This document shows, in pieces, positions 39,128 through 46,584 of a DNA stretch of 64,000 bases; positions within the stretch are counted from its first letter, which is position 1, and each line of letters begins with the position of its first letter. Location: the NCBI RefSeq assembly GCF_003002055.1, contig NZ_PVZF01000003.1, positions 186,001 through 250,000 on the forward strand. The letters are read 5' to 3'. A model generated the notes under the pieces. That model had not been told where the DNA came from, ran no database searches, and worked only from the letters and a program-made list of their open reading frames with translations. This DNA is from Kineococcus rhizosphaerae. GTDB lineage: Bacteria > Actinomycetota > Actinomycetes > Actinomycetales > Kineococcaceae. Both the position numbers and the translations under genes were made by a program.

Positions 39128-39304
39128 TCAGCAGCAGCGGGCACCGGGCCGGACGGCCCGCGCGTCGGCGCGCCGGCGTTCGAAGGCGCCCCGGCTCAGC
39201 GGCGCGTGGCCGTGCTCGGCGCACCGGCCCAGGTACGCCTCCCAGCGCTCCTCGCCGTCGACCTGCCGCCGCGCCCAGCGCAGCGCCGCCCACACGCGTC
39301 TCAC
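39128..39304 (-). CDS. ybdD: YbdD/YjiX family small protein
   Basis: A 58-residue protein with the YbdD/YjiX ending GARCC and a body of the form YLGRCAEHGHAPLSRGAFER. The family almost always follows CstA and is thought to assist this transporter. GTG 39304 overlaps the cstA stop codon (GTGA), so translation is coupled. Last gene of the two-gene unit. Confidence 0.88.
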   Translation of the reverse strand: MRRVWAALRWARRQVDGEERWEAYLGRCAEHGHAPLSRGAFERRRADARAVRPGARCC

Positions 39305-41469
39305 GACCGGCCCCCGGCCCGGGCCCGCTCCAGCTCGCGCCGCTCGTCGGGCAGGACCACGATCCCGGCCGGTTCGACGAGCCGGGACTCCACGGCCGGC
39401 TCCTCCGTCGTCGGCAGCCCCCCGGCCCGCAGGGCCCGCACCACCACGACGGCGGCGTTGACGGCGACCACGAGCACCAGCAGCGCGAACACCGACTGCA
39501 GGACCCCGTTCACCGTCGAGTTCGTCACGACCTGCTGCATCTGCGCGGCGTCCTTCGCCGGGGCCAGGACCTGGCCCGAGGCCAGGGCGTCGGCGTACTT
39601 CGAGCGCTGCGCGAAGTAGCCGATGGCCGGGTTCGCGGAGAACACCTTCTGCCAGCTCGCCGTCATCGTGGCCACGAGGTCCCACGCCAGCGGGACGGCC
39701 GTGACCCACGCGTACCGGGCCTTGCCGTGCTTGACGAGCAACGTCGTCACGAGCGTCAGCGCGATCGCGGCGAGCAGCTGGTTGGCGATCCCGAACAGCG
39801 GGAACAGCTGGTTGATCCCGCCGAGGGGATCGGTGACCCCGGTGTAGAGGAAGTACCCCCACGCACCGACGACGACGGCGCTGGCCACGACGTTGCCGGG
39901 CCGCCAGGACAGGTCCCCGAACCTCTTCCAGACGTTGCCGACCGTGTCCTGCAGCATGAACCGGCCCACGCGCGTCCCGGCGTCGACCGCGGTGAGGATG
40001 AACAGCGCCTCGAACATGATCGCGAAGTGGTACCAGAACGCCTGCAGCCCACCGCCGAACGCCTGGTGGAACACCTGGGAGATCCCCAGCGCCAGCGCCG
40101 GGGCGCCGCCCGTGCGGGACACGACGCTGTCCTCGCCCACGGCCTGCGCCGCGCCGGCCAGGGCGTCGGGGGACGTCGTGAACCCCAGCCCGGAGACGAA
40201 GCGCGCGGCGGACTCGGCGGTGCCGCCCGTCGCCCCCGCCGGGGAGTTGACCGCGTAGTACAGCCCCTGGTCGATGACCGAGGCCGCGATGAGCGCGCTG
40301 ATCGCGACGAAGCTCTCCATGAGCATGCCGCCGTACCCGATGAGCCGGACCTGGCGTTCCTTCGCGACCATCTTCGGCGTCGTGCCGGAGGCGATGAGCG
40401 CGTGGAAGCCCGACAGCGCCCCGCAGGCGATGGTGATGAACACGAACGGGAACAGCGACCCCGCGAACACCGGCCCGTTCCCCTCGCGCGCGAACGACGT
40501 CACGGCGTCGTTGGCCAGCACCGGCCGCGCCACGACGAGGCTGACGGCCAGCAGGACGATGACGCCGACCTTCATGAACGTCGAGAGGTAGTCGCGCGGG
40601 GTCAGCAGCAGCCACACGGGCAGCACCGAGGCGACGAAGCCGTAGACCACGAGGGCGACCACGAGGGTCTGCGGCGTCAGCGTGAGGGCGCCGGCCAGGC
40701 CCCAGCTCTCCACGTACCCGCCGCCGACGATCGCGGCCAGCAGCAGGACCACGCCGACGCCGGTGGCCTCCAGGACCTTCCCGGGCCGCAGGTAGCGCAG
40801 GTAGACGCCCATGAACAGCGCGATGGGGATCGTCAGGGCGATGGAGAACACGCCCCACGGGGAGTCGGCCAGGGCGTTGACGACGATGAGCGCGAGCACG
40901 GCCAGGATGATGATCATGATGGCGAACACGGCGACGAGCGCCGCGACGCCGCCGACGAGGCCGATCTCCTCGCGGACCATCTGCCCCAGGCTGCGCCCGC
41001 CGCGGCGCATCGAGAAGAACAGCACCGTCAGGTCCTGCACGGCCCCGGCGAAGATCACCCCGACGACGATCCAGACGGTGCCCGGCAGGTAGCCCATCTG
41101 CGCGGCGAGCACGGGCCCGACCAGCGGGCCGGCCCCGGCGATGGCGGCGAAGTGGTGGCCGAACAGGACCCGCCGGTCGGTCACCTCGAAGTCGACGCCG
41201 TTGGCGTTCTTCTCCGCCGGGGTGGCCCGGCGGTCGTCGGCACCCAGCACCCGGTAGGCGATGAACCGGGAGTAGAACCGGTACGCGATCGCGTAGGACG
41301 CCAGCGCCGCGAACAGGATCCACAGGGCGTTGACGGACTCGCCGCGCGCGAGGGCCAGGACCGTCCAGCAGGCGGCGCCGACCACGGCCACCGCCGTCCA
41401 CACCGCGACCGACCGGGGTGAGGGGCGCCGTCGCGCCACCTCGAGGTGCTCGGACTGCAACCGGGACAC
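39301..41469 (-). CDS. cstA: Carbon-starvation protein CstA (pyruvate/peptide transporter)
   Basis: A 722-residue membrane protein with about 16-18 membrane segments. Family motifs include VLFGHHFAAIAGAGPLVGPV near the N-terminus, GTVWIVVGVIFAGAVQDL and the GFHALIASGTTPKM loop. CstA proteins import pyruvate and/or peptides during carbon limitation. Start at GTG 41469 is preferred over upstream in-frame starts because GGAGG lies 6 nt upstream. The C-terminal 70 residues after the last membrane segment are cytoplasmic. Coupled to ybdD by a 4-nt overlap. No linked two-component regulator is seen. Confidence 0.95.
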   Translation of the reverse strand: MSRLQSEHLEVARRRPSPRSVAVWTAVAVVGAACWTVLALARGESVNALWILFAALASYAIAYRFYSRFIAYRVLGADDRRATPAEKNANGVDFEVTDRRVLFGHHFAAIAGAGPLVGPVLAAQMGYLPGTVWIVVGVIFAGAVQDLTVLFFSMRRGGRSLGQMVREEIGLVGGVAALVAVFAIMIIILAVLALIVVNALADSPWGVFSIALTIPIALFMGVYLRYLRPGKVLEATGVGVVLLLAAIVGGGYVESWGLAGALTLTPQTLVVALVVYGFVASVLPVWLLLTPRDYLSTFMKVGVIVLLAVSLVVARPVLANDAVTSFAREGNGPVFAGSLFPFVFITIACGALSGFHALIASGTTPKMVAKERQVRLIGYGGMLMESFVAISALIAASVIDQGLYYAVNSPAGATGGTAESAARFVSGLGFTTSPDALAGAAQAVGEDSVVSRTGGAPALALGISQVFHQAFGGGLQAFWYHFAIMFEALFILTAVDAGTRVGRFMLQDTVGNVWKRFGDLSWRPGNVVASAVVVGAWGYFLYTGVTDPLGGINQLFPLFGIANQLLAAIALTLVTTLLVKHGKARYAWVTAVPLAWDLVATMTASWQKVFSANPAIGYFAQRSKYADALASGQVLAPAKDAAQMQQVVTNSTVNGVLQSVFALLVLVVAVNAAVVVVRALRAGGLPTTEEPAVESRLVEPAGIVVLPDERRELERARAGGRS

Positions 41470-41530
41470 GTTCCGCCTCCTCGCGGTCGTCTGTGCGTCT
41501 GCCCAGAAGACTCGCACGCCCGCCCGGCCG

Positions 41531-42322
41531 TCACCCCACGAGCGGCCCGTACAGCGCGGCGCGGCGGTCGGCCAGGTAGGGGTTCGCCCGCTGGGCCCGC
41601 TCGACCGCCCCGGGGTCGACCGTGGCGAACAGCAGCGCCTCGCCGTGCTCCACCGACGCCAGGACCGTCCCGTCCGGGGCGACGACGCTGCTGCGGCCCA
41701 CGTAGTCGAACGACCCCTCGTGCCCGTCGCGGTCGACGTAGGCGACGTGGACCTGGTTCTCCCAGGCGCGGACCCGGACCACCTGCTCGGCCACCAGCTC
41801 GAACGGGTGCATCTGCGCCGTCGGGACCGCGACGAGGTGGGCGCCCGCGAGCGCCGCCGCGCGCACGGCCTCGGGGAACTCCACGTCGTAGCAGATGAGC
41901 AGCGCGATGCGCAGACCGTCGAGGTCGGCGGTCGTGACGAGCCGGTCGCCCGCGGTGAAGGCGGCGCGGTCGACGTCGCCGAACAGGTGGACCTTGTGGT
42001 GGCGGGCCAGCACCCGCCCGTCGGGGCCGACGAGGACGGCGGCGTTGAAGCAGTCGTCCCCCACGACCTCGGGCAGGCCCACGACCAGCGCGATCGAGTG
42101 CTCGCGGGCGAGCGCCCGGACCCGGTCGAGCAGGCCGGGGGCCAGGGCGCGCACGCGGGCCGGGGTGTCGGGACCCAGGTCGTAGCCGGTGAGGAACATC
42201 TCCGGGGTGATGAGCAGCGAGGCCCCGCCGGCGGCGGCCTCGGCGGCCCGGCGCCCGAGCGCGTCCAGGTTGGCCCCGGGGTCCCCGCTCACCCCGGCGG
42301 TCTGCAGGCAGGCGATCTCCAC
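41531..42322 (-). CDS. Carbon-nitrogen hydrolase (nitrilase superfamily)
   Basis: A 263-residue amidase-type enzyme. The catalytic triad is visible as Glu in LLITPEMFLTGYD, Lys in ARHHKVHLFGD and Cys in ALLICYDVEFPE. It hydrolyses a C-N bond in an amide or N-carbamoyl compound; it most resembles short omega-amidase or predicted amidohydrolase branches. GTG at 42322 follows TAGGGT by 7 nt. It is divergent from the acyl-CoA reductase gene with a 60-bp shared region, and codirectional with cstA 62 bp downstream. Confidence 0.92.
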   Translation of the reverse strand: MEIACLQTAGVSGDPGANLDALGRRAAEAAAGGASLLITPEMFLTGYDLGPDTPARVRALAPGLLDRVRALAREHSIALVVGLPEVVGDDCFNAAVLVGPDGRVLARHHKVHLFGDVDRAAFTAGDRLVTTADLDGLRIALLICYDVEFPEAVRAAALAGAHLVAVPTAQMHPFELVAEQVVRVRAWENQVHVAYVDRDGHEGSFDYVGRSSVVAPDGTVLASVEHGEALLFATVDPGAVERAQRANPYLADRRAALYGPLVG

Positions 42323-42335: not shown

Positions 42336-42369
42336 CGGTCGGGCGCGCGGTGCGGGTGCGCATCCGTGG

Positions 42370-42375
42370 CAGGAT
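42370..42375 (+). promoter_or_regulatory. Leaderless -10 box of the acyl-CoA reductase gene
   Basis: CAGGAT ends 7 nt before GTG 42383. The same TGGCAGGAT-N7-GTG arrangement recurs at 44710. Confidence 0.45.
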
Positions 42376-42382
42376 CCTCCGC

Positions 42383-44674
42383 GTGCGATTGGCTGAGCAG
42401 CTCGACGGCAAGCGGTTCCTCCTGACCGGGGTGACGGGCTTCATCGGTGAGGCGTTGCTGCAGCGTCTGCTGGTCGACCTGCCCGGCACGACGGTGGTGG
42501 CGCTGGTCCGTCCCAAGCCCGGTCAGAGCGGCGAGGACCGGCTGCGCTCGCTGCTGCGCAAGCCGATCTTCCGGGCCGCCGGGGACGCCGACGACCTGCT
42601 CAAGACGCGCGTCGAGGCCCTCGAGGGCGACCTGTCGAACGTGCCGGAACTGCCCGCCGACATCGACGTCGTCGTGCACTGCGCCGGCGACGTCTCCTTC
42701 GACCCGCTCATCCAGGACGCCTTCACCACCAACGTCGTCGGCACCCGCGCGCTGGTGGAACGCACGCTGGAGGCCAACGAGCGCGGCCACGGCGCCGTCC
42801 ACTACGTCCACGTCTCGACGGCCTACGTGGGGGGCCGCCGGCGCGGGGCCGTGCCCGAGCGCGCGGTCGAGCACAGCGTCGACTGGCGCAGCGAGACCGA
42901 GTCCGGGCTGCGGCTGGCCGCGCGCATCGAGGAGGACTCCCGCCTGGAGGAGCGCCTGAAGGGGTTCCTGCGCGCCGCCGAGCGCGACCACGGCCGGGCC
43001 GGGCCGCTGTCGGTGGCCGCCGGCGCCGAGGAGCGCCGCGTGAAGTGGGTCGTCGCCCAGCAGAAGGCCGCGGGCCTGGAACGGGCGCGCACGCTGGGCT
43101 GGACGGACTGCTACACCTTCACCAAGGCCATGGGCGAGCGGCTGGTCGAGGAGGTCGCCGCCCCCGTGATCCCCACGACGATCCTGCGCCCGAGCATCGT
43201 CGAGTCGGCCGTGAAGCACCCCAGCCCCGGCTGGATCGAGGGCTTCAAGATGGCCGAGCCGATCATCCTGGCCTACGGGCGCGGGGAGCTGACCGAGTTC
43301 CCGGCCGCTCCCGACTCCGTCATGGACGTCGTGCCGATCGACCACGTCGTCAACGCGATCCTCAAGGCGTCGGCGACCCCGCCGCCGCTGTCGCGGCCGG
43401 CGTACTACCACGTGTCCTCCGGGGCCCGGAACCCGCTGACGTTCCGGGAGATCTACGAGTACATCCGCGAGTACTTCACCGCGCACCCCTTCGACTCCTC
43501 CCCGGCGGTCATGCCGACGTGGGACTTCCCCGGGGGCCGGGCCGTCGAGCGCAAGATCCGCGCCGGGGAGCTGCTGACGGGTGCCGGCGACCGCCTGCTG
43601 GCCTTCGCCCCGCGCTCGCGCAAGGTGCGCGAGGCGTCCCGCAAGCTGGACGGGGCGCGTCGCCAGATCGACTTCGCCCGCCGCTACATGGACCTGTACA
43701 AGGCGTACACCGAGGCCGAGCTGCGGTTCGTCGACGACAACACCCTGGCCCTGCACCGGGCCCTGGACCCGGCCGACGTGGAGCTGTTCGGCTTCGACAC
43801 CTCCACGGTCGACTGGCGGCACTACTGGCTGGAGTCGCACTGCCCGTCGGTGACGACCCAGATGCGCAAGTACGAGGAGATCCGCCGCCGGCGCACGGCG
43901 ACGGAGAACAACGGGCCCCGGGCGCTGCGGCCGGCCGGTGAGGGTGGCGCGCCGGTCCTGGCGGTCTTCGACCTGGCCGGGACGCTGCTGCCGGGCACGG
44001 TCGTCGACACGTACCTCACGCTGCGGCTGTCGTCGCTGGACGCGCCGGCCCGGATCGCGGAGTTCGGCCGCGTCATGCGGCACCTGCCGGGCTGGATCGC
44101 CGCCGAGCGCCGCGACCGCGGCAGCTTCCTGCGCTCGCTGTTCCGCGGCTACGCCGGGGTGGACCTCGACGCCCTCGAGCAGTACGTCGACGACGTCTTC
44201 GCCCCGGACTTCCTGGCCTCGATCTCCTCCGACGCGCTGCGCCGCATCCAGGCCCACCGCGACGCCGGGCACCGCACGGTCCTCATGACCGGCGACGTCC
44301 GGCAGGTCACGCGGCCGCTGGCCGGGCTGTTCGACGAGGTCGTGTGCACCGAGCTCGACGAGCAGGTCGTCGACGGCACGCGCCGCGCGAGCGGCTTCCT
44401 CACCTCCCCGCCGCTGGTCGGGGAGGCCCGGGCGGCGTGGGTGCGCCGGTACGCCGAGGTCGAGGGGGCGGACCTGTCCGCCAGCTACGCCTACGCCGAC
44501 TCCCACGTGGACCTGCCGCTGCTGAAGGCCGTCGGCAACCCCACCGCCGTCTCCCCCGACGTGCCGCTCTTCCGCGTCGCCCGGGGCTCGCGCTGGCCCG
44601 TCGCGGACTGGGCCGCGTCGTCGCCGACGCGGCGCCTGCGGGTGCCGCAGCAGGTGCTGGCGGGGACGGACTGA
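42383..44674 (+). CDS. Fatty acyl-CoA reductase fused to a HAD-IB domain
   Basis: A 763-residue fusion. Residues 10-500 are a FAR/MS2-like NAD(P)H-dependent reductase: TGVTGFIG (15-22) binds the cofactor, Tyr244 and Lys248 in YTFTKAMGE form the YxxxK site, and the ILRPSIVES and VVPIDHVVNAI blocks follow. It should reduce acyl-CoA to aldehyde or alcohol. Residues 525-750 are a HAD-IB (phosphoserine-phosphatase-like) domain, VFDLAGTLLPG, with the nucleophile Asp530 but Ala532 where the acid/base Asp is usual; motif IV YADSHVDLPLL is intact. GTG at 42383 follows CAGGAT by 7 nt. A PlsC-type acyltransferase follows, indicating a lipid-modifying pair. Confidence 0.88.
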   Translation: MRLAEQLDGKRFLLTGVTGFIGEALLQRLLVDLPGTTVVALVRPKPGQSGEDRLRSLLRKPIFRAAGDADDLLKTRVEALEGDLSNVPELPADIDVVVHCAGDVSFDPLIQDAFTTNVVGTRALVERTLEANERGHGAVHYVHVSTAYVGGRRRGAVPERAVEHSVDWRSETESGLRLAARIEEDSRLEERLKGFLRAAERDHGRAGPLSVAAGAEERRVKWVVAQQKAAGLERARTLGWTDCYTFTKAMGERLVEEVAAPVIPTTILRPSIVESAVKHPSPGWIEGFKMAEPIILAYGRGELTEFPAAPDSVMDVVPIDHVVNAILKASATPPPLSRPAYYHVSSGARNPLTFREIYEYIREYFTAHPFDSSPAVMPTWDFPGGRAVERKIRAGELLTGAGDRLLAFAPRSRKVREASRKLDGARRQIDFARRYMDLYKAYTEAELRFVDDNTLALHRALDPADVELFGFDTSTVDWRHYWLESHCPSVTTQMRKYEEIRRRRTATENNGPRALRPAGEGGAPVLAVFDLAGTLLPGTVVDTYLTLRLSSLDAPARIAEFGRVMRHLPGWIAAERRDRGSFLRSLFRGYAGVDLDALEQYVDDVFAPDFLASISSDALRRIQAHRDAGHRTVLMTGDVRQVTRPLAGLFDEVVCTELDEQVVDGTRRASGFLTSPPLVGEARAAWVRRYAEVEGADLSASYAYADSHVDLPLLKAVGNPTAVSPDVPLFRVARGSRWPVADWAASSPTRRLRVPQQVLAGTD

Positions 44675-44709
44675 GGTGGCGCGCAGGGCCCCCGCCGGGG
44701 CCCTCGTGG

Positions 44710-44715
44710 CAGGAT
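44710..44715 (+). promoter_or_regulatory. -10 box upstream of the acyltransferase gene
   Basis: CAGGAT ends 7 nt before a GTG (44723) that opens a 26-codon reading frame overlapping the acyltransferase start, as in the leaderless genes nearby. Confidence 0.4.
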
Positions 44716-44722
44716 GCGCGGT

Positions 44723-44803
44723 GTGAACTCCGCACCGTCGAGCAGTCCCCGCACCGGTCAGCGCCGACCGCTGGTGACGGGGACCGAAGGATGGCGAGTC
44801 TGA
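44723..44803 (+). CDS. Possible 26-residue leader peptide
   Basis: GTG at 44723 sits at the position expected for a leaderless start (7 nt after CAGGAT) and opens a 26-codon frame, beginning MNSAPSSSPRTG, that ends in TGATG, overlapping the ATG of the acyltransferase at 44803. The arrangement suggests translational coupling of a short leader to the enzyme. The peptide resembles nothing known. A small frameshift that cut off the true N-terminus of the acyltransferase is the alternative. Confidence 0.4.
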   Translation: MNSAPSSSPRTGQRRPLVTGTEGWRV

Positions 44804-45546
44804 TGGGAATCCCGCGACCGTCCCGGATCGTCCGGGCACTGCCGTTGCTGCGCAAGCACTCCAGCGGCTCCTCCGAGGGCGGTGGACGGTCCGTCCACCG
44901 CAACGACTGGGTCCGCTCGGCGCCGGCGACCACGGTGCGCTCGGCGCTGCAGCAGGTCCTGATGGGCCCGGTGATCCGCTCGCAGGTGCGGGTCCACACC
45001 CACGACGTGGAGGCGCTGGACCGGCTGGGGACGGCGGCCGTGCTGGTCGCCAACCACTCCTCGCACCTGGACGCGCCCGTGATCCTGGAGGCGCTGGGCG
45101 CGCGCCGGCGCCGGCGGGTGGCCATCGCGGCCGCGGCGGACTACTTCTTCGACGTGTGGTGGCGCGCGGCCCCCTCGGGCCTGGTCATCGGGACCTACCC
45201 GCTGGAACGGCGCGGCGGCCGCGGGGCGAACCCGTCGGCGCAGCTGCTCGCGGACGGCTGGAGCCTGGTGATCTTCGCCGAGGGCGGCCGCAGCTACACG
45301 GGCGAGATGCGTCCCTTCAAGAAGGGCGCGGCCTACCTGGCCCTGGAGGCCGGCGTCCCCGTCGTCCCGATCGCGCTGCGCGGGACGTTCGAGGCCATGC
45401 CGCCCAAGCGCAACTGGCCCGTGCCCGGCCGTCCCGACGTGCACGTGACGTTCGGGGAGCCGCTGCACGGCCGCCAGGGCGAGAAGGCCGGGGACTTCAC
45501 CGCGCGCATCGAGGAAGCGGTCGCGAAGCTCCTCGCGAACTCCTGA
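44803..45546 (+). CDS. 1-acylglycerol-3-phosphate acyltransferase-like (PlsC family)
   Basis: A 247-residue acyltransferase. The HX4D motif is NHSSHLDAP, and block III is FAEGGRSYTGEMRPFKKG with the EGxRS signature; VPVVPIALRG is block IV. It should transfer an acyl chain from acyl-CoA or acyl-ACP to a hydroxyl, usually lysophosphatidate. ATG at 44803 overlaps the leader-peptide stop; ATG at 44791 is an alternative, as neither has an ideal ribosome binding site. Located 128 bp behind the acyl-CoA reductase fusion, so the two may act on the same lipid. Confidence 0.88.
   Translation: MGIPRPSRIVRALPLLRKHSSGSSEGGGRSVHRNDWVRSAPATTVRSALQQVLMGPVIRSQVRVHTHDVEALDRLGTAAVLVANHSSHLDAPVILEALGARRRRRVAIAAAADYFFDVWWRAAPSGLVIGTYPLERRGGRGANPSAQLLADGWSLVIFAEGGRSYTGEMRPFKKGAAYLALEAGVPVVPIALRGTFEAMPPKRNWPVPGRPDVHVTFGEPLHGRQGEKAGDFTARIEEAVAKLLANS

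Positions 45547-45594: not shown

Positions 45595-46584
<990 letters not shown>

Follow-up and report, generated by a model that had tools for sequence, protein, structure and literature searches.

A 64,000-nucleotide stretch of the Kineococcus rhizosphaerae genome (contig NZ_PVZF01000003.1, positions 186,001 to 250,000; the window hereafter) encodes a fatty acyl-CoA reductase (FAR)-type protein fused to a HAD domain, which we call FAR-HAD, followed on the same strand by a PlsC-type acyltransferase. The two genes stay together across most relatives, and the Kineococcus pair is likeliest a reduced form of a four-gene cluster. We tentatively read the locus, with confidence just short of even, as a Kineococcus variant of a conserved unit with which actinobacteria would make aldehyde- or ether-type (plasmalogen-type) lipids. 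An earlier annotation made from the letters of the window (the original prediction) had proposed the pair as a lipid pathway; the larger cluster behind it and the altered active site of its HAD domain, both described below, were absent from that account.

The reductase-acyltransferase pair and the cluster behind it

The reductase part is complete at the domain level, carrying an NAD_binding_4 domain with both of its motifs intact (TGVTGFIG and YTFTK, matching TGxxGFxG and YxxxK) and a Sterile domain above its cut-off. These two domains are shared with fatty acyl-CoA/ACP (acyl carrier protein) reductases such as plant DPW and the animal FAR1 type. Rice DPW (7eoz, deposited as a fatty acyl-CoA reductase) is the nearest solved homologue both by sequence, over FAR-HAD residues 3-497, and by fold, being the top Foldseek match of a predicted structure with a mean predicted local distance difference test score (pLDDT) of 85.6. 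Unlike DPW, FAR-HAD has an additional C-terminal HAD fusion beyond the stretch that matches 7eoz; the Foldseek match for this part of the model was 3fvv, a structure of unknown function.

The acyltransferase has a PF01553 domain with readable HX4D (NHSSHLD) and EGxRS (EGGRS) motifs, as does the PlsC 1-acylglycerol-3-phosphate acyltransferase 5kym with its EGG(T)RS-type motif. It differs from that enzyme in scoring 64.5 bits against TIGR00530, under the cut-off of 102.95, and in its position in the PlsC tree. In this midpoint-rooted tree, which has some long branches and comprises 52 rows representing 48 genes (L003, L096, L146 and L147 were entered twice), a 100/99 branch groups the PlsC of the window with other FAR-linked PlsCs, 46 rows together; on its opposite side lie the remaining two PlsCs encoded in this genome and three PlsC-like FAR-HAD neighbours. 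By this tree, the PlsC next to FAR-HAD belongs to a distinct and apparently dedicated clade.

Although the original prediction considered such a pathway uncommon in actinobacteria, FAR-HAD itself was found in 60 of 246 genomes of the class and in all 11 from Kineococcus. To describe the neighbourhood we took the best 80 of 207 relatives from the genome scan and kept the 68 loci with at least 3.3 kb of downstream sequence (the other 12 were dropped); two further rows, L151 and L152, duplicate L004 and L009 and were left out of counts. Within 3.3 kb downstream on the same strand, PlsC was present in 59 of the 68, as detected with a profile built from the PlsCs of some loci later searched; a LarA homologue (LarAH) likewise occurred in 59 and a zinc dehydrogenase in 31. 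An extra sample of 20 loci from other genomes, picked mostly for lacking LarAH, contributed 19 testable cases, in which PlsC lay downstream on the same strand in 12, no more than 2.7 kb away on the other strand in five, and nowhere nearby in two. The L004 locus has an arrangement like that of the window and a FAR-HAD 83% identical to it. With their domains complete and the pair kept together in most relatives, which was the co-occurrence check put forward with the original prediction, FAR-HAD and PlsC are supported as a genuine conserved functional unit.

Kribbella, Nocardioides, Actinopolymorpha, Quadrisphaera and others share one gene order: FAR-HAD first, then a zinc dehydrogenase, next the LarA homologue and last PlsC. 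At 914 bits the LarA homologue clears the 740-bit cut-off of NF052592 (LarAH14/15/16), and it occurs in 39 of the 246 class genomes (39 of 40 matches were used; G237, at 75 bits, was dropped). FAR-HAD and LarAH are co-present in 37 genomes, lying 1.2-1.7 kb apart in 35 and on separate contigs in two. LarC, which is required for the nickel-pincer nucleotide (NPN) cofactor, was found in 31 of the 39 LarAH genomes, eight giving no match, and the Propionibacteriaceae copies of LarAH lack the GGHK...H stretch, which we take to be the cofactor site. Viewed from the side of LarAH, the orphan group LarAH14-16 nearly always has FAR-HAD as a neighbour (L010, L015, L036 and others).

In Kineococcus both middle genes, dehydrogenase and LarA homologue, are missing between FAR-HAD and PlsC. 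Searches of seven Kineococcus genomes, that of the window and the six behind L004-L009, returned no LarAH in any of them, and the genome of the window gave no LarC match; LarAH14/15/16 is thus a member of the putative ancestral cluster seen in relatives that has no counterpart here. Quadrisphaera, listed under the same family, has all four genes of the cluster (L036, L072), and Pseudokineococcus has FAR-HAD with no PlsC nearby and no LarAH above the cut-off. The likeliest account of these distributions is that the Kineococcus pair is a reduced four-gene cluster whose two middle genes were lost along the way. A literature search, supplementary files excluded, returned no description of a FAR-HAD/dehydrogenase/LarAH/PlsC cluster (papers given by PMC number are cited from partial text throughout; for LarA enzymes and wax-ester synthase in general, see PMC11770544 and PMC11948995). 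According to PMC12611868, LarAH groups 14 and 15 are without the second catalytic histidine, and a Frankia LarAH14 showed none of seven assayed activities in the portion of the report available (PMC7583248).

A candidate lipid pathway and its rivals

As we infer its substrates, order of steps and product, the pathway would begin with the FAR part converting a fatty acyl thioester, probably of the dominant anteiso-C15 chain, to an aldehyde or alcohol, which would then be incorporated into a glycerolipid. The dedicated PlsC would add the second acyl chain to this glycerolipid, and the fused HAD domain would work on a phosphorylated intermediate. The end product would be an aldehyde-releasing or alkyl/alkenyl-ether (plasmalogen-type) glycerolipid, yielding a fatty dimethyl acetal upon methanolysis. 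Such an acetal is on record in the genus: the aerobe K. rubinsiae B12, whose record (whole-genome shotgun prefix VWPY) is the source genome of locus L004, has anteiso-C15:0 dimethyl acetal at 2.9%, an identification confirmed by gas chromatography-mass spectrometry (PMC7472656). Its describers found this surprising in an aerobe and indicative of plasmalogens, and suspect that dimethyl acetals have passed for hydroxy acids in other members of the genus (PMC7472656). In Subtercola species a single dimethyl acetal reaches as much as 17% (PMC5945732).

Plasmalogens are described as exceptional in aerobic bacteria outside the myxobacteria, whose elb operon unites FAR1-like and AGPAT-like (ElbD) domains with the HAD protein ElbB; elbD mutants lose the ether lipids and lack the i15:0 aldehyde of the wild type (PMC9131029). 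The locus resembles elb in combining FAR, AGPAT and HAD parts, matched by domain names and not by sequences, and in the association with branched-chain aldehyde lipids in an aerobe. The two systems differ in that ElbD adds acyl-CoA-synthetase and ACP domains, neither of which Pfam finds in FAR-HAD or PlsC, and in that our locus has FAR and HAD in one polypeptide, with the acyltransferase as a protein of its own. CarF, whose homologues are reported in the available text only from some myxobacteria and Leptospira (PMC9131029), was another point of difference, as none was recognised when 2.46 of the 5.61 Mb of the window's genome (∼44%) were scanned with crude motifs for ether and plasmalogen enzymes.

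Beside these comparisons stands an observation on two other loci (L095:5143-9116 and L097:5190-9062), where small proteins flank FAR-HAD on both sides and one of each flanking pair has a weak FA_desaturase_2 or Rubrerythrin match; an O2-dependent step beside FAR would agree with an aerobic route to vinyl ethers.

Several points weigh against an aldehyde/ether lipid role. The crude motif scan of ∼44% of the genome recognised no alkyl-DHAP synthase, CarF/PEDS1 or PlsA/PlsR, and no ether-forming or desaturase step (L209, a weak match of the diiron query, proved to have no Pfam family). The dimethyl acetal amounts to only 2.9% in one strain and, in the published text available, no mutant ties it to FAR-HAD/PlsC; Subtercola, with the clearest lipid data among other aerobic actinobacteria, is unmatched to a genome here. 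In nine of the 68 testable relatives FAR-HAD lacks a PlsC within reach (L028, L035, L054, L063, L071, L077, L080, L081, L083), and the LarA homologue and dehydrogenase of relatives have no role in a simple ether-lipid scheme. The HAD domain, finally, has lost its acid/base residue in Kineococcus and scores under its family cut-off.

The middle genes of relatives suggest another role, in which the unit serves a hydroxy-acid- or polyol-containing lipid instead of an ether lipid, the ancestral dehydrogenase and LarA-type isomerase producing an atypical head group or a hydroxyacyl chain, with the Kineococcus version being a shortened one. LarAH14-16 does belong to a family of NPN-dependent hydroxyacid isomerases and adjoins FAR-HAD in nearly every genome that has both (35/37), yet LarAH is absent from all the Kineococcus genomes searched, both middle genes are gone from the locus, and the Propionibacteriaceae copies lack the presumed cofactor site. 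FAR-HAD and PlsC remain where the middle genes are gone, which argues that these genes are not essential to the core, and we consider this role unlikely. Quite improbable, in our judgement, is an end in wax esters or free fatty alcohols with PlsC as an ordinary neighbouring lysophosphatidate acyltransferase: the FAR fold fits that of DPW, whose product is an alcohol, and small C16:0 N alcohol peaks are listed for Kineococcus species (Table 2 of PMC7472656), but the PlsC groups with FAR-linked proteins, apart from the genome's two other PlsCs. The wax-ester synthase family WS/DGAT (PF03007) gave no match in the genome, a null that counts for little because the control genomes gave none either. 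Of the lipid types suggested in the original prediction, then, the ether/aldehyde direction agrees with the acetal on record in K. rubinsiae, and wax esters find no support. The acetal could instead derive from the known anaerobic-type reductases PlsA/PlsR, with FAR-HAD/PlsC serving some unrelated role. PlsA/PlsR remain a rival source, as Propionibacteriales and Actinomycetales are reported to have them (PMC9702350), but the K. rubinsiae strain is described as aerobic (PMC7472656) and the crude motif recognised no PlsA-like long open reading frame (ORF) in the 2.46 Mb, so that we hold this origin very unlikely.

The HAD active site in Kineococcus

In an alignment of 110 FAR-HADs, including 12 from Kineococcus, the nucleophile Asp530, Arg683 and the motif-IV pair Asp706/Asp710 (DxxxD) are invariant. 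Together with the motif-II Thr636, the nucleophile and the motif-IV acids are held in common with HAD-IB phosphatases (TIGR01490, PF12710). In contrast to those enzymes, the FAR-HAD of the window carries Ala at the acid/base position of motif I that Asp normally takes (DLAGT for DxDGT), leaving one of the two Asp of the motif, and scores 81.7 bits against TIGR01490 (HAD-SF-IB-hyp1), under the cut-off of 98.3. Across the alignment this position, 532, is Asp in 85 sequences, Ala in 12, Glu in nine, Gln in three and His in one, the Ala being found in all 12 Kineococcus. Whenever 532 is a non-acid (16 rows), residue 638, two positions past Thr636, is Asp, Glu or Gln, and it is Asp in all 12 Kineococcus; in the 94 rows with Asp or Glu at 532 it is never any of these three. 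Three further loci (L104-L106, group f24) have DLDGA as HAD motif I, Ala standing where Thr is usual; in their genomes (G038, G122, G088) LarAH scores under its family cut-off and LarC gave no match.

Residue 638 presumably lies in the active site, judging from HAD structures, and a relocation of the catalytic acid from motif I to Asp638 is a fair hypothesis. On a tree of the reductase part (59 of the 110 FAR rows) residues 532 and 638 each change twice, and together; two changes per trait are too few for a sign test to reach significance (p 0.5), and Asp638 is therefore not proven to compensate for the lost Asp532. It is also possible, though we put it somewhat below even, that the Kineococcus HAD domain is dead and retained as structure alone, which would be compatible with any of the lipid roles considered above. 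DLAGT in all 12 Kineococcus sequences is what a dead domain might show, but the invariant nucleophile, Arg683 and motif-IV acids and the new Asp beside motif II speak for function. So does conservation: mean identity within Kineococcus is 0.863 for the HAD domain and 0.849 for the reductase, and a domain as conserved as its partner is probably not decaying.

Start signals, flanking genes and wider bearing

The original prediction pointed to nearly identical promoters before both genes (Table 1). The exact TGGCAGGAT-N7-GTG arrangement does occur twice in the window (42367 and 44707), against a mean of 0.01 in shuffled sequence and with two copies reached in 0 of 100 shuffles. From its spacing, GTG 42383 would be a leaderless start of FAR-HAD, and a TG(G/A)NNGGAT box precedes FAR-HAD in all Kineococcus loci inspected (seven plus seven, two genomes being in both sets). 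The second GTG (44723), tried as the PlsC start, is out of frame with PlsC and opens a 26-codon ORF, whose stop overlaps the PlsC ATG at 44803 as TGATG. Of 12 Kineococcus loci, 11 have this stop/start overlap, their upstream frames being 18-31 codons long; in the exception, L005, the upstream frame continues directly into PlsC. The arrangement looks like translational coupling of a short leaderless ORF to PlsC.

As a special regulatory link of the pair, however, the shared promoter does not survive. A relaxed motif (GTGGNWGGAT-N4-9-RTG) has 14 matches in the genome against two for a reversed control; at nine of the 14 the frame that follows has at least 155 codons, FAR-HAD being among these nine and the other products seemingly unrelated to lipids. 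Since the motif also fronts unrelated longer ORFs, the TGGCAGGAT-type motif is a general leaderless promoter and no private signal of the pair.

Table 1. Features of the FAR-HAD/PlsC locus, in window coordinates.
Feature	Position	Strand	Basis
TGGCAGGAT box, putative leaderless promoter of FAR-HAD	42367..42375	+	motif, spacing
FAR-HAD, FAR-type reductase fused to HAD domain	42383..44674	+	open frame from GTG, 763 aa; Pfam
NAD_binding_4 reductase domain, residues 14-326	42422..43360	+	Pfam 2.6e-50
Sterile (FAR C-terminal) domain, residues 427-484	43661..43834	+	Pfam 37.9 bits, cut-off 35.4
HAD domain, residues 527-715	43961..44527	+	Pfam 8e-32
Ala532 codon, in place of motif-I acid/base Asp (DLAGT, not DxDGT)	43976..43978	+	alignment
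Asp638 codon, acid gained two residues past motif-II Thr636	44294..44296	+	alignment
Second TGGCAGGAT box	44707..44715	+	motif
26-codon leaderless upstream ORF; TGA 44801-44803 overlaps PlsC start	44723..44803	+	frame reading
PlsC-type acyltransferase	44791..45546	+	251 aa from ATG 44791; 247 aa from ATG 44803; frame intact
PF01553 Acyltransferase domain, residues 68-196	44992..45378	+	Pfam 2.2e-24

Upstream, a carbon-nitrogen hydrolase (41534-42322, minus strand) is divergent from FAR-HAD, with CstA beyond it (39304-41517). Downstream of PlsC, a cyclic di-AMP riboswitch (RF00379, 56.2 bits, 45708-45876) directly precedes a Transglycosylase-like/LysM gene (45877-46584).

In its fullest form, which we regard as unlikely, our reading would give aerobic actinobacteria a plasmalogen-type pathway of their own that needs neither CarF nor PlsA, has FAR-HAD and a dedicated PlsC at its core and ancestrally included the nickel-pincer LarAH14-16; Kineococcus would have shed LarAH and moved the HAD acid from motif I to two residues past motif II. 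In the literature as far as its text was available, the dimethyl acetals of aerobic Kineococcus and Subtercola have no genes assigned to them, and the locus offers a testable candidate. The fixed neighbourhood of FAR-HAD is also a lead to the substrate of the orphan LarAH14-16 group, and the inactivity of the one LarAH14 assayed may reflect a lipid-related substrate that lay outside the assays.

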